A stretch of 43,452 nucleotides of DNA from Tissierellia bacterium (GTDB taxonomy: Bacteria; Bacillota; Clostridia; Tissierellales; Tepidimicrobiaceae). Position numbers and translations under genes: made by a program. The notes under the pieces were generated by a model. The model ran no database searches. It saw only the letters and a program-made list of their open reading frames with translations, and had not been told where the DNA came from. The stretch lies in the NCBI GenBank assembly GCA_012728365.1, contig JAAYFE010000026.1, positions 1 through 43,452 of the forward strand, given 5' to 3'. Of this stretch, positions 4,434 to 15,893 are shown in pieces; positions within the stretch are counted from its first letter, which is position 1; each line of letters starts with the position of its first letter.

Positions 4434-4459
4434 AAAAGGGTAGGATAACCTACCCTTTT
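4434..4459. terminator. Bidirectional terminator between tldE and the CNNM gene
   Basis: A perfect 11-bp hairpin, AAAAGGGTAGG (4434-4444) with its complement at 4449-4459, has a 4-nt loop, with A and T tracts on the two sides. It serves the rightward tldE transcript and, overlapping its stop codon (4450-4452), the leftward CNNM gene. Confidence 0.85.
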
Positions 4460-5814
4460 CCATTTACAACTTTTAATTGGAGTTCTTCATTCTCTTCCTT
4501 TTCATTTATATATACAACAGCCCTTTCCATTCTATGGTCCTTTATGGATGTTACCTTAATATGAAGGTTTAAAACATCCAATTCAGGTGTACTTCCGTCG
4601 GCTGGTACTGTACCTAACATACCAAAGACAAATCCACCAAAGGTATCATATTCATCTATATCTGGAAGATCAATTCCTAGCTGCTCAGCTACCAATTCTA
4701 CAGGGGTATGGCCTTGAATTTTCCAAGTTTTTGAATCAATTCTTTCAATTAAAGGTGGTTCAACAGGTACAGTTGTATCGTCATCTAAATTTCCTACTAA
4801 TTGTTCTAGTAGGTCATTAATGGTTATGATGCCAGCCATTCCGCCATAATCATCTAGTACAACTGCAAAATGGTTTCGGCTTTGTTTCATATTGTTAAAA
4901 AGCACGTCTGTTCTTACTGTTTCAGGGACAAAGTAAGCAGGACGTACAGCTTTGTCTAAAACATTATCTTTAGATCTATCCTTTAATCTAAAATAATCCT
5001 TCGTATTTAAAACTCCAATTACATTATCTGTACTTTCATGGCATACAGGATAATAGGTATGCCTACTTTCATAAATAGTTTTTTCCCAATCTTCCTCGCT
5101 TTCCTCTAACCAAAGCAGGCTTACTTCAGTTCTATGGGTCATTACATCTTGGGCATATTTATTATCAAATTCAAATATATTGTGAATCATTTCGTGTTCA
5201 CTTTCATCGATGGAGCCTTTCTGGTGTCCCTGGTCCACCATCATACGGATATCTTCTTCAGTAACAATATCATCTAATTCATTAGGATCTATGCCGATTA
5301 AGTGTAAAATTACATTTGTTGATTTTGATAACAACCATACGAGTGGACTAAAAATTTTAGAAAGTAAGAATACAAGTCCTGATACCATTAATGAAATCTT
5401 TTCAGGATTTTTCATGGCAATTCTTTTAGGTACCAATTCTCCAAAAACTAAGGTGAAATAGGATAAAATAATGGTAATAAATATAACAGATAATGTATTT
5501 AGCGTAGCAGGATTTATATTAACTCCTACCCTTACTAAAAAGTCTACTAATGGATCGGAGAAATTATCCGCTGCAAAGGCACTAGCTAAGAAACCTGCTA
5601 AAGTAATACCTACTTGAATAGTAGATAGAAAACGGGAAGGTTCCTCAATTAGGTATAAAATCCTACTAGCTTTTTTATTACCATCTTTCTTCATAGCTTC
5701 TAATCTGTTTTCATTGGCAGATATTATTGCTATTTCAGCACATGCAAAAATTGCATTAGCAAAGATTAAAACAAGTAGCAGCAAAATCTGCCCCCCAATA
5801 GAAACATCTGACAA
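4450..5814 (-). CDS. CNNM/CBS-domain (hemolysin C/CorC-type) ion transporter
   Basis: A 454-residue protein. The N-terminal CNNM (DUF21) domain spans about residues 1-195 with four hydrophobic segments, followed by a CBS pair (about 210-335; MTHRTEVSLLW and DDYGGMAGIITINDLLEQLVG are typical) and a C-terminal CorC_HlyC domain (about 350-435). Relatives include Mg2+ exporters and Mg2+/Co2+ tolerance factors (MpfA, YhdP); the old hemolysin name is misleading. The start is TTG at 5814 with AGGAGG 10 nt upstream. The gene is preceded by its own promoter and an untranslated leader with a terminator-like hairpin, suggesting attenuation. Cation direction and specificity are not visible. Confidence 0.9.
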   Translation of the reverse strand: MSDVSIGGQILLLLVLIFANAIFACAEIAIISANENRLEAMKKDGNKKASRILYLIEEPSRFLSTIQVGITLAGFLASAFAADNFSDPLVDFLVRVGVNINPATLNTLSVIFITIILSYFTLVFGELVPKRIAMKNPEKISLMVSGLVFLLSKIFSPLVWLLSKSTNVILHLIGIDPNELDDIVTEEDIRMMVDQGHQKGSIDESEHEMIHNIFEFDNKYAQDVMTHRTEVSLLWLEESEEDWEKTIYESRHTYYPVCHESTDNVIGVLNTKDYFRLKDRSKDNVLDKAVRPAYFVPETVRTDVLFNNMKQSRNHFAVVLDDYGGMAGIITINDLLEQLVGNLDDDTTVPVEPPLIERIDSKTWKIQGHTPVELVAEQLGIDLPDIDEYDTFGGFVFGMLGTVPADGSTPELDVLNLHIKVTSIKDHRMERAVVYINEKEENEELQLKVVNGKG

Positions 5815-7901: not shown

Positions 7902-7911
7902 ATAAAATAAA

Positions 7912-7940
7912 TTGCGAAAGCAATTAAATTATGATATATT
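7912..7940 (+). promoter_or_regulatory. marR promoter with overlapping TTGC-N4-GCAA palindrome
   Basis: The palindrome TTGCGAAAGCAA (7912-7923) begins at the -35 hexamer TTGCGA, and TATATT (7935-7940) follows at a spacing of 17 bp. The same palindrome layout occurs at the suf promoter (8499-8527). It is a candidate autoregulatory operator of the MarR protein encoded 27 bp downstream. Confidence 0.6.
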
Positions 7941-7966
7941 AGATAAAAAAATAGGGGGAATTTACT

Positions 7967-8434
7967 TTGAGGAATTGTCCAGATGATTACATAAGCAGAT
8001 GGTTTTCAGTTTTTCATCGATTATATCTAAGCTTTGTATATGAAGGTCTTAAAGAATATAATATTGGCAGTGGCCAGATCATGTTTTTGCTGGAACTATA
8101 CTATTGTGATGGCGTAAGTCAGGAAGAGCTATCATCCTATTTAAGCATTGATGGGGCAAATACTACTAGGGCCATAAATAAGCTGGAAAAAGAAGGTTAT
8201 GTTATAAGAAAACAAGATGAGAAGGATAGAAGAGTAAAAAGAATTTATTTAACAAAAAAAGCTATGGATATAAAGCCAAAGGTATTAGGACTAATTAACC
8301 AATGGGAAAGTTTACTTTTAGAGAACTTAACAAAAGTTGAAAAACAGGTGCTAAATGATTTATTAAAGAAAATTGGACATGCTAGAGTTGAAAATAATAG
8401 ATGCCAAATATGTGAAAAAGATTGTAGTAAATAA
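7967..8434 (+). CDS. MarR-family transcriptional regulator with C-terminal cysteine cluster
   Basis: A 155-residue MarR protein. The winged helix-turn-helix spans about residues 48-98: VSQEELSSYLSIDGANTTRAINKLEKEGYV is the helix-turn-helix, DRRVKRIYLT the wing. Unusually, the C terminus ends CQICEKDC (C146, C149, C153), with further cysteines at 4 and 47; a CxxCxxxC tail could bind metal or an Fe-S cluster. The start is TTG at 7967 with AGGGGGA 7 nt upstream. It sits just before the sufCBDSU operon, and both promoters carry the same palindrome, so it is a plausible suf regulator. The ligand is inferred, not seen. Confidence 0.88.
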   Translation: MRNCPDDYISRWFSVFHRLYLSFVYEGLKEYNIGSGQIMFLLELYYCDGVSQEELSSYLSIDGANTTRAINKLEKEGYVIRKQDEKDRRVKRIYLTKKAMDIKPKVLGLINQWESLLLENLTKVEKQVLNDLLKKIGHARVENNRCQICEKDCSK

Positions 8435-8435
8435 G

Positions 8436-8473
8436 AGACATGTTGTTGGCAGACCAACAATATGTCTTTTTTT
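8436..8473 (+). terminator. marR terminator
   Basis: A long hairpin (8436-8449 with 8454-8467, one mismatch) with loop CAGA is followed by a T tract to 8473. It separates marR from the suf promoter, so the two are distinct transcripts. Confidence 0.88.
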
Positions 8474-8498
8474 GTATTAAAATAATTTTCAAAAATAG

Positions 8499-8527
8499 TT
8501 GCGTACGCAAATAATATATGGTATCCT
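8499..8527 (+). promoter_or_regulatory. suf operon promoter region with TTGC-N4-GCAA palindrome
   Basis: The perfect palindrome TTGCGTACGCAA (8499-8510) overlaps a -35-like TTGCGT; TATCCT (8522-8527) is 17 bp downstream. The phase is identical to that of the marR promoter. The -10 match is weak, so the promoter call is less sure than the palindrome. Confidence 0.55.
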
Positions 8528-8574
8528 TTAATGTATAGTAAAATAGTAGGAATTAAAGGATAAGGAGTATGATT

Positions 8575-9315
8575 ATGGGAGGAAAATTTTTATCAATTAA
8601 AAATTTACATGTTAAAGTTGGAGATAATGAGATTCTAAAGGGATTAAGTCTTGATATAAATAAGGGTGAAGTACATGTAATTATGGGCCCTAATGGGGCA
8701 GGAAAGTCAACTCTTGCCAATGTATTAATGGGCAATCCAAAGTATGAAATTACTGAAGGGGAAATTGAATTTGAAGGCCAAATAATCAATGATGCTAAGG
8801 TAGATGAAAGGGCAAAACTAGGAATATTTATGTCATTCCAATATCCAGAAGAGATTCCTGGTATAACTGTAGAAAACTTTTTGCGTTCAGCTAAAATGGC
8901 AATAGAAGACAAACCAATAAAGGTAATGGAGTTTAAAAAGACATTAAAGGAAAAAATGAAACTATTGGATATGAAGGAAGAATATGCTCAAAGATACTTA
9001 AATGAAGGATTTTCAGGTGGAGAAAAGAAAAAAAGTGAAATACTTCAACTTTTAATTTTAGAACCAAAACTTGCTATATTAGATGAAACAGATTCTGGCC
9101 TTGATGTAGATGCAGTTAGGGTTGTAGCCACTGGAGTAAAAGAATATAGATCAGATGAAAACTCCATTATTATAATAACCCACCACAACAATCTATTGGA
9201 GTATTTAAACCCTGATTATGTTCATTTCCTAATTGATGGAAAAATAGTAAAAAGTGGTGATATGAGCCTAATAGACATTATAGAAAAAGAAGGTTTTGAA
9301 GCCTTCAAAAACTAA
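8575..9315 (+). CDS. sufC: Fe-S cluster assembly ATPase SufC
   Basis: A 246-residue ABC-type ATPase. Walker A GPNGAGKS is at residues 38-45, the signature FSGGE at 146-150 and Walker B LAILDE at 166-171, with the SufC-typical Q-loop region FMSFQYPEEIPG. SufC forms the SufBC2D scaffold complex and powers its conformational change during Fe-S cluster assembly in the cytosol. The second ATG (8575) is chosen because AAGGAG is 7 nt upstream; the ATG at 8569 lies 1 nt from it. First gene of sufCBDSU. Confidence 0.95.
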   Translation: MGGKFLSIKNLHVKVGDNEILKGLSLDINKGEVHVIMGPNGAGKSTLANVLMGNPKYEITEGEIEFEGQIINDAKVDERAKLGIFMSFQYPEEIPGITVENFLRSAKMAIEDKPIKVMEFKKTLKEKMKLLDMKEEYAQRYLNEGFSGGEKKKSEILQLLILEPKLAILDETDSGLDVDAVRVVATGVKEYRSDENSIIIITHHNNLLEYLNPDYVHFLIDGKIVKSGDMSLIDIIEKEGFEAFKN

Positions 9316-9335
9316 AGGAACAGGGTGTGAGGCAT

Positions 9336-10745
9336 ATGGAAACAAGAAGAAAGACTTATGTGGAAGATATAGATCGTGGTATATATGACATAAAAAATGA
9401 ATTTAAATACGATTATATAACAGAAAAAGGATTAACTGAGGAAATAGTAAAGGATATTTCAAAAAAGAAAAATGAACCAAAGTGGATGACAGACTTCCGT
9501 TTAAAATCTTTAGAAATTTATAATAAACTAGACCTGCCAGTTTGGGGACCAAATCTTGATGAGCTGGATATAGATAATATTGTTACTTATGTAAAGCCTA
9601 AAACAGACATGAAATATAGTTGGGAGGATGTACCTGAAGATATAAAGGAGACCTTTGTAAGGCTTGGTATTCCAGAGGCAGAACACAAATCATTGGCAGG
9701 AGTAGGTGCCCAATACGATTCAGAAGTAGTATATCACAATCTTAAAGGATATCTTGCTCAAAAAGGTGTTGTATATACAGACATGGAAACAGCAGTTAGA
9801 GAATATGAGGATATTATAAGGGAACATTTTATGACTGTAGTGCCACCAAGTGACCATAAGTTTGCAGCCCTACATGGGGCAGCTTGGTCAGGAGGCTCCT
9901 TTGTATATATCCCAGCAGGTGTTCATGTAGACATACCTTTACAGTCCTATTTTAGGTTAAATGCACCTGGTGCAGGCCAGTTTGAACATACCTTAATTAT
10001 AGTAGAAAAGGGAGCCTTCCTCCATTTCATAGAAGGATGCTCTGCACCAAAATATTCTGTAAACAATCTTCATGCAGGTTGTGTAGAGCTAATAGTTAAG
10101 GAAGGGGCAAGACTAAGATATTCTACCATAGAAAATTGGTCAAAGAATATGTTTAACTTAAACACAAAAAGGGCCATAGTGGAAAAGGATGGGATAATTG
10201 AATGGATATCTGGTTCCTTTGGCTCAAAGGTATCTATGCTATATCCTATGAGTATTTTAAAGGGAGAGGGAGCCAGGGCAGAATTTACAAGTATAACCTT
10301 TGCCGGTAATGGTCAGTACCTTGATACTGGTGCTAAGGTAGTCCATGCTGCACCCTATACTACATCAAGTATTAATACCAAATCCATTTCAAAGGATGGG
10401 GGTGTGGCAGTATACAGAGGATCCCTGACCATTACAGAAAATGCCCACCACTGTAAATCTACCATATCCTGCGAATCATTAATGTTGGATAATAGATCAA
10501 GATCCGATACAATACCAGTTATGGATATTAGAAATGATGAAGTAGATATAGGCCATGAAGCAAAAATTGGTAGAATAAGTGATGAGGCTATATTCTATCT
10601 TATGAGTAGGGGAATTAGCGAAGAAGAAGCTAAGGCCATGATAGTTAGAGGTTTTGTTGAACCAATATCAAAGGAGTTGCCTCTTGAGTATGCCGTAGAG
10701 ATGAACAATCTAATTAATCTAGAGCTTGAAGGCACAATTGGTTAA
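9336..10745 (+). CDS. sufB: Fe-S cluster scaffold protein SufB
   Basis: A protein of about 469 residues with the full SufB architecture: an N-terminal helical region (EPKWMTDFRLKSLEIY), the right-handed beta-helix core (FAALHGAAWSGGSFVYIPAGV) and the C-terminal region ending EYAVEMNNLINLELEGTIG. SufB is the main scaffold on which the cluster is built, together with SufC and SufD. Cysteines in CKSTISCESL lie in the region that carries the essential cluster cysteine. ATG 9336 is used; an in-frame GTG at 9327, with AAAGGA 6 nt upstream, is an alternative adding three residues. The gene starts 20 nt after sufC. Confidence 0.95.
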   Translation: METRRKTYVEDIDRGIYDIKNEFKYDYITEKGLTEEIVKDISKKKNEPKWMTDFRLKSLEIYNKLDLPVWGPNLDELDIDNIVTYVKPKTDMKYSWEDVPEDIKETFVRLGIPEAEHKSLAGVGAQYDSEVVYHNLKGYLAQKGVVYTDMETAVREYEDIIREHFMTVVPPSDHKFAALHGAAWSGGSFVYIPAGVHVDIPLQSYFRLNAPGAGQFEHTLIIVEKGAFLHFIEGCSAPKYSVNNLHAGCVELIVKEGARLRYSTIENWSKNMFNLNTKRAIVEKDGIIEWISGSFGSKVSMLYPMSILKGEGARAEFTSITFAGNGQYLDTGAKVVHAAPYTTSSINTKSISKDGGVAVYRGSLTITENAHHCKSTISCESLMLDNRSRSDTIPVMDIRNDEVDIGHEAKIGRISDEAIFYLMSRGISEEEAKAMIVRGFVEPISKELPLEYAVEMNNLINLELEGTIG

Positions 10746-10756
10746 GGAGTGATTAA

Positions 10757-11881
10757 ATGATAGAAATTAAAGATGAACTAAACTCCATTCCTGTAAAAAC
10801 CTACAGATGGTTAAATGTAAATCATTTAAAAATAGATGAAGTTATTAGGAAGGATAAAAAGCCTTATAGTAAAAAATTTGTTGACTATATGGATGATGAA
10901 AATATTTCCATTGGAACTATAAGCAATATAGTTTCTATAAATCAGCATTTAAATAAAATTGATGATGAAAAATATGAATATGGTGTATCCAAGAAAATGG
11001 TAGAGTTAGCTGAAAACTCTTATAATGCAGGAGTTTATGCCTATATTAAGAGAGGGGCTAATATTGAAAAGCCTATTAGAATCCAGTATGCAATGGATAA
11101 GGAAAATGATCTGGTTATAGATAATAACATAATTGTAGCTTCAGAAAATAGTAGGGCTACCATAGTTATAGACTATTATACTCTTGATGATGTAGATGCC
11201 TTCCATAATGGAGCTTTAAAAATTTTTGCAAAGCCTGGGGCTAATATTACAGTTATAAAGATACAGAGAATGAATGACAATTCCTGCCACTTTGATTCAA
11301 ATCTTGCAATTGTAGAGCCTGGTGCAGAAGTAGATTTTATACAAGTAGAATTTGGAAGTAAAAGGACTGTTACAAACTATATCTCAAATATAAAGGAAGA
11401 AGGTAGGTCTTCTATAGATTCAATTTACTTAGGAGATAAGGATAGGGAATTAGACTTAAGTTATTATATGAACCATATTGGCAGAAGGAGTATTAGCAAT
11501 ATAGAAACAAGGGGAGCCCTAAAAGACAAAGCAAAGAAAATATTTAAGGGAACTATAGATTTTAAGAAAGGCTCTAGTAAATCCATAGGAAAAGAAGAAG
11601 AATCGGTAATTTTACTAGATAAAACTGTAATATCAAAACAAGTACCACTACTATTATGTACAGAAGATGATGTAATAGGAGAACATGCTGCCAGTTCAGG
11701 CAAGGTGGATGAGGATAAGCTCTTTTATATGATGAGCCGTGGTTTTTCAAAGAAAGAAGCTTTGAAGGCATTGGTTGAAGCTTCCTTTAACCCTATAATT
11801 GATAAAATTCCTATGGAGGATATAAAAAATATTGTTAAAGATGAACTAGCAAGAAAGCTTGTTATGGAGGATAGAAAATGA
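10757..11881 (+). CDS. sufD: Fe-S cluster assembly protein SufD
   Basis: A 374-residue SufB/SufD-family protein. The beta-helix core includes ENSRATIVIDYYT and the C terminus has the conserved EHAASSGKVDEDKLFYMMSRG, which matches SufD. SufD partners SufB and SufC and helps deliver iron during assembly. It is shorter and more diverged than SufB, as usual. ATG 10757 follows AAGGAG at good spacing, 11 nt after sufB. Its stop overlaps the sufS start (ATGA), implying translational coupling. Confidence 0.92.
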   Translation: MIEIKDELNSIPVKTYRWLNVNHLKIDEVIRKDKKPYSKKFVDYMDDENISIGTISNIVSINQHLNKIDDEKYEYGVSKKMVELAENSYNAGVYAYIKRGANIEKPIRIQYAMDKENDLVIDNNIIVASENSRATIVIDYYTLDDVDAFHNGALKIFAKPGANITVIKIQRMNDNSCHFDSNLAIVEPGAEVDFIQVEFGSKRTVTNYISNIKEEGRSSIDSIYLGDKDRELDLSYYMNHIGRRSISNIETRGALKDKAKKIFKGTIDFKKGSSKSIGKEEESVILLDKTVISKQVPLLLCTEDDVIGEHAASSGKVDEDKLFYMMSRGFSKKEALKALVEASFNPIIDKIPMEDIKNIVKDELARKLVMEDRK

Positions 11882-13116
11882 TAAGCTTTGATGTTGAAAG
11901 AATTAGAGAAGATTTTCCGACCTTAAATGAAAAAGTAAATGGAAGGACTCTTGTATATTTAGATAATGCAGCCACAACCCATAAACCAAAATATGTACTA
12001 GATGCTATAAAAGATTATTATGAAAGGTTTAATGCAAATCCTAATAGAGGAGCCCACTACCTTGGAGTTTCAGCAACTGAATTATATGAAGGAGCAAGGG
12101 AAAGGGTAAGACAGTTTATAAATGCTAGATCTACAAGGGAAATAATTTTTACTAGAAATGCAACGGAAGCTTTAAATTTAATAGCCTATTCCTATGGTTT
12201 GAAATATATAGACGAAGGGGACGAAATTGTAGTTTTAATTTCAGAACACCACAGTAATATTGTGCCCTGGCAAAAAATTGTTCAGACAAAAAAGGCTAAG
12301 TTAAAATATATATATTTAAATGAAGACTTTAGACTAGACATGGAAGAAGTAAGTATTAAAATTACAGACAAGACTAAAATAGTGTCCTTAGCACAAATGT
12401 CAAATGTTTTAGGCACCATATACCCAGTTAAGAAAATTGCAGAATATGCCCATTCTAAAGGAGCAATAGTAATAGTAGATGGTGCCCAAAGTGTCCCCCA
12501 TATGAAGGTTGATGTTTTAGACTTGGATGCTGATTTTCTTGTTTTTTCAGGCCATAAGATGCTAGGGCCAATGGGTATAGGGGTTTTATATGGCAAGGAA
12601 GAGTTTTTGGAAAAAATGCCCCCTTTCCTTATGGGAGGGGATATGATTGAATATGTGGAAGAGCAGTCAACTACCTTTGCAGAGCTTCCTAGGAAATTTG
12701 AAGCTGGTACCCCCAATGTAGAAGGAGCTGTAGGTCTTAAGGCAGCTATAGATTATATAGAAAAAATAGGTTTTGAAAATATACAAAGGCAGGAAGAAGA
12801 GTTAACAGCTTATGCCCTAGAAAGGTTAAAGGAAATGCCTTATGTTAAAATATACGGTCCCCTTGATATGGAAGATAGGGGTGCTGTAATTTCCTTTAGC
12901 CTTGAAGGTTGCCATCCCCATGATGTAGCCACTATAGTTGATACTTATGGGGTAGCCTTAAGGGCAGGCCACCACTGTGCTCAGCCTCTTATGAAATATT
13001 TAAAGGCCCCAGCAACTTCTAGGGTAAGCTTTTATTTTTACAATACAAAGGAAGAAGTAGATATATTTATAGATAGTCTAAGCAAGGTAAGGAAGTGGTT
13101 AGGTTATGGATCTTAA
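11878..13116 (+). CDS. sufS: Cysteine desulfurase SufS
   Basis: A 412-residue group II cysteine desulfurase. The PLP lysine is K227 in SGHK and the catalytic cysteine is C367 in RAGHHCAQP, the pattern specific to SufS/CsdA proteins. HH (125-126) and DGAQS (201-205) complete the PLP site. It removes sulfur from cysteine as a persulfide and passes it to SufU. ATG overlaps the sufD stop by 4 nt; a GGAGG lies 9 nt upstream within sufD. Confidence 0.96.
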   Translation: MISFDVERIREDFPTLNEKVNGRTLVYLDNAATTHKPKYVLDAIKDYYERFNANPNRGAHYLGVSATELYEGARERVRQFINARSTREIIFTRNATEALNLIAYSYGLKYIDEGDEIVVLISEHHSNIVPWQKIVQTKKAKLKYIYLNEDFRLDMEEVSIKITDKTKIVSLAQMSNVLGTIYPVKKIAEYAHSKGAIVIVDGAQSVPHMKVDVLDLDADFLVFSGHKMLGPMGIGVLYGKEEFLEKMPPFLMGGDMIEYVEEQSTTFAELPRKFEAGTPNVEGAVGLKAAIDYIEKIGFENIQRQEEELTAYALERLKEMPYVKIYGPLDMEDRGAVISFSLEGCHPHDVATIVDTYGVALRAGHHCAQPLMKYLKAPATSRVSFYFYNTKEEVDIFIDSLSKVRKWLGYGS

Positions 13117-13546
13117 TCAATTGTATACAGAACTAATACTTGAACACAGCCAAAGTGGCCACAACAAAAAACACCTAGAAGATGCCAATTGTATTGAAAG
13201 GGGCCACAACCCTAGTTGTGGTGACGATATAACATTAGAATTAGTTTGTACTGATGATGGAAAAATAAAAGATGCATCCTTTACAGGAGTTGGATGTGCT
13301 ATATCCCAGGCTTCTACTTCCATAATGATAGATCTTATAAAGGGGAAGACCAAGGAAGAGGCAGAAAAGTTAGCAGATATTTTTCTTTCCATGATAAAAA
13401 AGGAAATAACAGATGATGAAGAATTAGAGGTATTAGAGGATGCTATTGTATTTAAAAATATTTCAAATATGCCAGCTAGGGTAAAGTGTGCAGTTTTATC
13501 CTGGCATACCCTCAAGGAATCTATTAAAAAGAAAGACAGTAGGTAG
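13106..13546 (+). CDS. sufU: Sulfurtransferase/Zn-dependent relay protein SufU
   Basis: A 146-residue SufU with the conserved ligands C38, D40, C64 and C128 (NPSCGDD, GVGCAIS, ARVKCAVL). In Firmicutes, SufU binds zinc through these residues and accepts persulfide sulfur from SufS. The insertion after the second cysteine (residues about 80-120) separates it from IscU. It overlaps the sufS end by 11 nt. The stop codon lies in the loop of the operon terminator. Confidence 0.95.
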   Translation: MDLNQLYTELILEHSQSGHNKKHLEDANCIERGHNPSCGDDITLELVCTDDGKIKDASFTGVGCAISQASTSIMIDLIKGKTKEEAEKLADIFLSMIKKEITDDEELEVLEDAIVFKNISNMPARVKCAVLSWHTLKESIKKKDSR

Positions 13547-13750: not shown

Positions 13751-15247
13751 TTGAGTTTGTTAACAAGGAAATTCAAAGAAGTATCCATGTCTGTATTGCC
13801 CATAACCTTACTTGTAGTAATTTTAAGTCTTACTGTAGTTGATGTAAAAGCCCATATGTTAATTAGATTTATAACAGGTTCCCTTATAGTCATACTAGGT
13901 CTTGGCATATTTCTTTTTGGAGCAGAACTAGGAATTTCACCCATTGGTAATCTAATGGGAGAGTATATTGCAAGAAGTAACAAATTTATAGTAGTGTGTA
14001 TACTAGGTTTCATATTAGGATTTTTAATTACAGTTGCAGAACCAGATCTACATGTACTTGCAATCCAAGTTGATGAAGCCTCAGGAAGCAGACTACCTAG
14101 TACATTATTTTTACTTGTTGTATCCATAGGTGTAGGGATCTTGGTTTTTATAGGACTTTTGAGAATTGTGTATGAAAAGCCATTAAATAGGTTATACACT
14201 ATTATATATTTTATAATTTTCTTATTAGGGCTTAGGGTGCCTGAGGAAATTTTAGCTATTTCTATAGATGCTTCTGGAGCTACAACTGGGGCTATGACTA
14301 CACCCTTCATACTGGCTTTAGGCCTTGGGGTATCCCATTTAAAAGGCGGCAAAAGCTCAGAGGAGGATAGCTTTGGAATGGTAGGTATGGCATCTGCAGG
14401 ACCTATACTTGCTGTAATGCTTATGAGTGTCCTGGCAGGAGTCACAGATATTCAAGGGGAAGCGGTGGAATTTACCCACCATAGTGGTATATTGAAGCCT
14501 TATCTTGAAGAGTTTCCAGTTGTAATGAGGGACATTTTGATAACTTTAACACCCATTATTATATTATTTTTAGCCTTTAATAAAACTAAATTTAAACTTA
14601 GTAGAAAGAATAGGAATAAAATATTAAAGGGGCTTTTATATACCTATATTGGTTTTGTATTATTTATGACAGGAGTTAATGCTGGTTTTATGGAGGTTGG
14701 TAGATTAATAGGTTATACTATTGCATCTTTAGAGCATAAATGGATATTGCCAGCCATAGGATTTTTATTAGGTCTTGTGGTAGTTTTAGCGGAGCCAGCA
14801 GTACATGTTTTGACGGAACAGGTGGAGGATGTAACTGCAGGTTATATAAGGAAAAAGGCAATTTTAGCCACCTTATCCATTGGAATTGCCTTTGCAGTAA
14901 CTTCTTCCATGCTGAGGATCATGATACCAGGTTTAAAACTGTGGCATTTTCTATTGCCAGGATTTGCACTGGCAGCCTTTTTAAGCTATAAAGTTCCACC
15001 TATTTTTGTAGGTATAGCCTATGATTCTGGTGGTGTAGCATCAGGACCTATGACAGCCACCTTTGTACTAGCCTTTGCACAAGGGGCTGCTGAAGCAATA
15101 CCTACAGCCAATGTTTTAGAAGATGGCTTTGGTGTTATTGCCATGGTAGCTATGACCCCACTGGTAGCCATACAGATACTGGGCTATTTGTTTAAGCTAA
15201 AAGCTAAAAAGGAGGGGGTTCATATTGACCACAATTCAGGAAAATAA
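13751..15247 (+). CDS. Two-repeat DUF1538 membrane protein (UmpAB-like)
   Basis: A 498-residue, strongly hydrophobic protein built from two homologous halves about 252 residues apart. Repeat 1 carries AEPDLHVL (96-103), DASGATTGAMTTPF (173-186) and DSFG (206-209); repeat 2 carries AEPAVHVL (347-354), DSGGVASGPMTATF (425-438) and DGFG (458-461). This is the DUF1538 family. From memory, a two-gene DUF1538 pair called UmpA/UmpB was reported as a Na+(Li+,K+)/H+ antiporter in Halomonas; here both halves are one polypeptide. The start is TTG 13751 with AAAGGAGG 7 nt upstream. Its end overlaps the PII-like gene by 23 nt, implying a coupled partner. The transported ion is unproven. Confidence 0.88.
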   Translation: MSLLTRKFKEVSMSVLPITLLVVILSLTVVDVKAHMLIRFITGSLIVILGLGIFLFGAELGISPIGNLMGEYIARSNKFIVVCILGFILGFLITVAEPDLHVLAIQVDEASGSRLPSTLFLLVVSIGVGILVFIGLLRIVYEKPLNRLYTIIYFIIFLLGLRVPEEILAISIDASGATTGAMTTPFILALGLGVSHLKGGKSSEEDSFGMVGMASAGPILAVMLMSVLAGVTDIQGEAVEFTHHSGILKPYLEEFPVVMRDILITLTPIIILFLAFNKTKFKLSRKNRNKILKGLLYTYIGFVLFMTGVNAGFMEVGRLIGYTIASLEHKWILPAIGFLLGLVVVLAEPAVHVLTEQVEDVTAGYIRKKAILATLSIGIAFAVTSSMLRIMIPGLKLWHFLLPGFALAAFLSYKVPPIFVGIAYDSGGVASGPMTATFVLAFAQGAAEAIPTANVLEDGFGVIAMVAMTPLVAIQILGYLFKLKAKKEGVHIDHNSGK

Positions 15248-15893
15248 AAAATATAAATTATTCTGTATTATAGTAGATTTTGGTAAAGGTACTAAGGTTT
15301 TAAGGGAATCTAAAAAACTAGGAGTAACTGGGGGAACTTTCCTCTTAGGCATGGGGACAGTCAGAAGCAGCCTACTAAAACTATTAGGCTTAGATGAGTC
15401 CAGAAAAGAAATCCTATTGATGGTAATAGAGGAAGGGCTAGAAGCCATACTTCATAAAGAACTAACAAGGATATTCCATTTAGATAAGCCACATCATGTT
15501 ATTGCTTTTTCCATGCCTGTAGCTAATGTAGTTGGATTGCATCATAGTCAATATATACCAAAGGGTGAAAAGGAAGGTGGAGATAGGATGAAATATGAGG
15601 CCATAGTTACCATAGTTGATAGGGGCTTAGCAGATGATGTAATGGAAGCTGCCAAAGAGGCAGGTTCAACAGGGGGTACAATACTTCATGGTAGAGGTTC
15701 TGGAATTCATGAAAAAGAAAAACTTTTTAATATGGAAATAGAGCCTGAGAAGGACATTGTTTTAATATTATCAACCACTGATAAGACAGATCAGATTGTG
15801 GATTCCATTAGAGAAAAGCTTAATATAGATGAGCCAGGTGCAGGTATCATATTTGTGTTGGATGTAAGCAAAACATCAGGCCTTGTAAAGTAA
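15225..15893 (+). CDS. Tandem PII-like (GlnB superfamily) regulatory protein
   Basis: A 222-residue protein with two PII-like ferredoxin-fold repeats. Residues about 10-108 carry GVTGGTFLLGMG and residues about 122-222 carry GSTGGTILHGRGSG; each ends in a hydrophobic strand (VIAFSMPVANVVG and GIIFVLDVSKTSGL). Canonical PII proteins are trimers of single domains that sense nucleotides and 2-oxoglutarate and often gate membrane transporters. A duplicated chain adjoining a duplicated membrane partner suggests it gates the DUF1538 protein. TTG at 15225 has GGAGGGGG 6 nt upstream, inside the previous gene. The uridylylation-type T-loop is not recognisable. Confidence 0.85.
   Translation: MTTIQENKKYKLFCIIVDFGKGTKVLRESKKLGVTGGTFLLGMGTVRSSLLKLLGLDESRKEILLMVIEEGLEAILHKELTRIFHLDKPHHVIAFSMPVANVVGLHHSQYIPKGEKEGGDRMKYEAIVTIVDRGLADDVMEAAKEAGSTGGTILHGRGSGIHEKEKLFNMEIEPEKDIVLILSTTDKTDQIVDSIREKLNIDEPGAGIIFVLDVSKTSGLVK

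Follow-up and report, generated by a model that had tools for sequence, protein, structure and literature searches.

The locus analysed here lies in a window of 43,452 nucleotides, the whole stretch of DNA under study (contig JAAYFE010000026.1 of assembly GCA_012728365.1, from a Tissierellia bacterium of the order Tissierellales), and comprises a marR gene flanked by yhhN, which encodes a YhhN-family membrane protein, and by the iron-sulfur cluster assembly operon sufC-sufB-sufD-sufS-sufU (Table 1). The strong terminator after marR argues that suf has a promoter of its own. The marR promoter was read from the sequence and was also picked up by a separate promoter/terminator prediction, and the -10 element and spacing of the suf promoter are conserved in five genomes. 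An earlier note on this DNA had claimed that a TTGC-N4-GCAA palindrome starts at the -35 hexamer of each of the two promoters, with a -10 element exactly 17 bp further on, and this arrangement is indeed found at both, the two -10 elements being in addition TG-extended. Downstream of suf follow a gene for a DUF1538 membrane protein (13751-15247) and one for a P-II-domain protein (15225-15893). In loci L007, L008 and L009, a gene encoding 274-281 aa is located between yhhN and marR, which is missing there in genomes G000 and G001; in L007 this gene codes for a carbon-nitrogen hydrolase (PF00795), whose last codons are overlapped by the marR operator.

Table 1. Genes and regulatory features of the marR-suf locus, in window coordinates
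Feature	Positions	Strand	Details
marR operator AATTGC-GAAA-GCAATT	7910..7925	.	core TTGCGAAAGCAA (7912-7923); on -35 of marR; kept in orthologues
marR promoter	7912..7940	+	TTGCGA 7912-7917, 17 bp, TG-extended TATATT 7935-7940
marR	7967..8434	+	TTG start, 155 aa; PF01047 50.3 bits, cut-off 24.6
marR terminator, intrinsic	8433..8470	+	stem of 17 pairs and T run
suf operator TTGCGTACGCAA	8499..8510	.	on -35 of suf promoter
suf promoter	8499..8527	+	TTGCGT 8499-8504, 17 bp, TG-extended TATCCT 8522-8527
IscR-type box AATGTATAGTAAAATAGTAGGAATT, probable	8530..8554	.	over suf start region, just past -10
sufC	8569..9315	+	TIGR01978 355 bits, cut-off 212.8
sufB	9327..10745	+	PF01458; place in operon
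sufD	10757..11881	+	PF01458; place in operon
sufS, cysteine desulfurase	11878..13116	+	PF00266
sufU	13106..13546	+	PF01592

Within the window, TTGC-N4-GCAA is matched three times as compared to 0.63 expected, a count of at least three being reached in 3 of 100 shuffles, so that the palindromes of the window taken alone are no more than suggestive; the third match, at position 5751, falls within a reverse-strand gene (4450-5814). Four further genomes carry a marR orthologue (71-92% identity), in each case directly 5' of sufC; one belongs to the genus of the window's genome and the other three to different genera of the family. The MarR-bearing set comprises five genomes (G000, G001, G003, G006 and G009) of four genera in the family of Schnuerera, a genus classed in Tepidimicrobiaceae by NCBI; Schnuerera sp. 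xch1 is among the genomes of that family. The search for a cysteine-tailed marR beside sufC in other genomes, which the earlier note had put forward as a check, revealed conservation of palindromes and cysteines in every case, with paired sites at the marR and suf promoters of all five genomes. The suf site reads ATAGTTGCG[AT]ACGCAA throughout, and no other block of that promoter is as well conserved; the marR site fits TTGC-N4-GCAA in four genomes, that of G003 (TTGCGAAAACAA) being one mismatch off. Allowing up to one mismatch to RTTGCGNNCGCAAY, exactly two sites, those of marR and suf, were observed in the genome of the window and none with a reversed-pattern control. Genome-wide searches at one mismatch returned only the marR and suf sites in G000 and G001, and one or two extra sites in each of G003, G006 and G009; a wider regulon was rejected, since these extra sites fall within long open frames. 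Besides marR, the only target found for the operator is suf, the Fe-S assembly operon. Among the other suf loci found in the order, none has TTGC-N4-GCAA 5' of sufC or this marR gene beside it, the upstream region of G018 being off the contig. The paired operators are a real feature of these genomes, beyond chance.

The MarR protein ends in CxxCxxxC (C146, C149 and C153), as the earlier note had read and the translation confirms, and C4, which the note had missed, is equally invariant. An alignment of the five orthologues shows these four cysteines in each, with C47 not conserved, the tail otherwise variable and the codons of the conserved cysteines varying synonymously, a conservation that covers five sequences from one family. 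None of some 60 homologues, among them the top hits in 391 genomes of the class, has the four-cysteine set, and the other relatives that two peptide patterns, which divergent members can escape, picked out of 84,980 species showed no cysteine tail; a cysteine tail as a general MarR trait was rejected on these grounds. The AlphaFold2 model gives a confident MarR fold (mean pLDDT 89.6), with a short helix at 145-149 inside a low-confidence tail, and its fold matches are 3s2w, the nearest solved structure, and 3bpx. The protein scores 85.3 bits against the model of BilQ, the MarR of bilirubin utilisation, below the curated cut-off of 125; it has no match to the Rrf2 domain (PF02082), and no SufR family model appears among its NCBIfam matches at E 0.01. 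The N- and C-termini of MarR dimers lie within the dimerisation domain, which makes a shared site formed by the four cysteines structurally plausible. These residues could plausibly serve as an iron-sulfur, metal or thiol sensor.

The MarR proteins that come next in similarity share up to about 45% identity and are dispersed over Clostridia. TTG-N6-CAA is present within 150 bp 5' of 25 of 29 homologous marR genes, as compared to 1.4 expected from dinucleotide shuffles, which points to this palindrome as the subfamily's own operator. Its strict form precedes 10 of the 29 (0.07 expected), and spacers of 2, 3, 5 or 6 bases gave no matches before the same genes. In Clostridium bovifaecis (L043), the sequence that precedes marR is TTGCGTACGCAA, identical to the suf site. 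MATE efflux pumps are the neighbours of homologous marR genes in all ten cases tested; the marR gene of the window adjoins yhhN and sufC and no MATE pump gene. In the tree, the cysteine-tailed MarRs form a single clade (100/100) on a long stem inside the homologue set, where the surrounding forks are weakly supported. Taken together, the shared operator, the MATE neighbours and the absence of the cysteine set from homologues suggest that suf acquired its regulator from among the MATE-pump repressors; the operator would then be ancient, and both the link to suf and the cysteines would be later gains. Three Erysipelotrichaceae loci (L049 7929-9074, L050 7881-9050 and L051 7923-9050) encode proteins of 375-389 aa in which a MarR domain (PF01047 or PF12802) is fused to a radical SAM domain (PF04055), so that regulator and iron-sulfur enzyme domain share one polypeptide.

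SufB proteins of the five MarR genomes (L054-L058) constitute one clade (100/100), apart from the SufB of other family members, and a single SufB clade for the family is rejected by the AU test (p-AU about 5e-5). The iscR-iscS tree places the five genomes beside some of those same family members. From this conflict of SufB with the family relationships, a reasonable reading is that the suf operon was transferred, perhaps together with its MarR.

The contrast that the earlier note drew with suf operons under IscR or Fur control holds in part: the MarR operator is present, but the suf promoter also carries a probable IscR-type box, and Fur-family and Rrf2-family proteins are encoded in all five MarR genomes. 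That MarR was recruited because IscR or Fur had been lost was rejected, both families being present. With a matrix built from non-clade suf promoters only, this box is the top site in the 43-kb window (18.3 versus 10.8 for the next), and with a matrix built from iscR promoters it scores weakly, so that its assignment is probable, not certain. The non-clade suf matrix found no IscR-type box at the marR promoters tested. Part of one arm of the box is lost in the suf promoters of the five MarR genomes, which have at best a weak box of the Fur type. Many relatives without MarR have IscR-type boxes (near AATTCCTAGTAAATTAGTAGGAATT) at their suf promoters (sufC promoters L059-L081), and a Fur-box-like sequence, at a threshold of 11/14 that we set ourselves, is present in 13 of 22. 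An IscR-like gene with three cysteines, having a promoter box near AATACCAAGTAATTTAGTTGGAATT (iscR promoters L082-L101), is found in all 20 genomes of the family, with iscS 3' of it in the loci read (19 of 20) and iscU present where checked. It is probable from these comparisons that an IscR input at the suf promoter has been retained beside MarR.

That MarR controls marR and suf together, as the earlier note envisaged, is strongly supported by the conservation of the paired operators, their absence where MarR is lacking and the presence of the same operator at homologous marR genes. From the conserved sites, their position and the MarR family we infer DNA binding and repression, and consider the repression of both marR and sufCBDSU well supported. 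By binding TTGC-N4-GCAA at each of the two -35 elements, a MarR dimer would exclude RNA polymerase from both promoters. Its lineage would have kept the operator of a MATE repressor and gained C4 with C146-xx-C149-xxx-C153, and the four cysteines would most likely hold an iron-sulfur cluster. As long as clusters abound, the loaded MarR would repress; iron shortage or cluster damage would strip MarR of its cluster and make it release DNA, turning suf on. A second input would come from the probable box of IscR type that overlies the start of suf. Repression by the holo form is proposed by analogy with SufR and holo-RisR (PMC13421787, PMC9973013). Among precedents, ChlR is a [4Fe-4S] protein of the MarR family (PMC13421787, PMC4500134), RisR and SufR repress suf in their cluster-loaded form (PMC9973013, PMC13421787), and ArnR is a winged-helix repressor that carries a [4Fe-4S] cluster (PMC12343034). 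A dedicated repressor of marR and sufCBDSU, descended from MATE repressors, with four cysteines most likely holding an iron-sulfur cluster and with an IscR-type second input, is a reading to which we give an even chance of being correct. Slightly short of even is our confidence in the evolutionary course, whereby a MATE-efflux MarR, upon the gain of four cysteines, would have become a cluster-carrying suf repressor beside IscR, replacing the Fur-type box of relatives.

Two alternatives give the cysteines another role, and both are rather unlikely, to a similar degree. In the first, MarR still represses marR and suf through these operators, but the cysteines constitute a thiol or persulfide switch, which oxidants, reactive sulfur or electrophiles would modify or crosslink, releasing MarR. 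Oxidation of cysteines is a signal for many members of the MarR family (PMC5487221), this one has conserved cysteines near both termini, and SufS makes persulfide, hence sulfur status could be the signal; however, thiol switches of the family usually need only one or two cysteines, and a set of four, three of them as CxxCxxxC, would seem more ligand-like. The cysteines could instead hold zinc or another metal in a structural or sensory role, the signal being metal or a small molecule in the MarR pocket rather than iron-sulfur status. Zinc is often held by four cysteines, and the pairing of subfamily relatives with efflux pumps suggests that a small-molecule signal is ancestral, but a drug-like signal makes little sense where suf is the sole regulated operon found, and the cysteines are confined to suf-linked MarRs. 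Considerably less probable is that suf is controlled mainly by IscR at its box, with MarR minor or vestigial: the box, an iscR gene and the use of IscR-type and Fur-type boxes by relatives all speak for it, but it is the MarR operator that is the best-kept block of the suf promoter in the five genomes, and the IscR-type box that has partly lost one arm. That the palindromes are coincidental, as the modest excess in the window by itself would allow, is hardly credible and was rejected in view of their conservation at both promoters in five genomes, the missing suf site where there is no MarR, and the subfamily operator before homologous marR genes.

For the essential process of iron-sulfur assembly, regulators from a few families (Rrf2, SufR and Fur) have been identified. 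A cluster-carrying MarR in this role, if true, would mean that a handful of anaerobes run this pathway with a switch of a new type, made by remodelling the repressor of an efflux pump: its sensor would be different, its operator the old one. The occurrence of the same operator with and without the cysteines offers a natural comparison for how a new sensor arises. In annotation, a marR gene beside suf would otherwise pass as a drug-resistance regulator.

No MarR regulator of suf was found in the literature searched, in which subscription journals are thinly covered; iron-sulfur regulators of the MarR type are known (ChlR), as are suf repressors that carry an iron-sulfur cluster (SufR and RisR), and their combination was not met with in that literature. 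The cyanobacterial ChlR is likewise MarR-type and recognises a palindrome of similar geometry, TTMCC-N3/4-GGWAA, but it is an activator of tetrapyrrole genes and binds its cluster through two N-terminal cysteines, C18 and C25 (PMC13421787), whereas the cysteines of the window's MarR are C4, the non-conserved C47, C146, C149 and C153. SufR, a winged-helix suf repressor with a [4Fe-4S] cluster on C-terminal cysteines (PMC13421787, PMC12343034), belongs to a different protein family. RisR and IscR share the logic of a cluster-loaded repressor for suf, RisR covering both the -35 and the -10 of the suf promoter (PMC9973013). Unlike the window's MarR, these two have the Rrf2 fold, and a separate iscR is present in the same genome. 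Escherichia coli MarR has the fold in common, but it regulates mar and lacks the cysteine tail. Its operator half-sites are of the TTGCC type. The MATE-paired MarRs of Clostridia, such as that of C. bovifaecis, resemble the window's MarR in fold, with 30-45% identity, and in a TTGC-N4-GCAA-type operator at their own promoter, and they differ from it in adjoining MATE genes and in being without the four-cysteine set.
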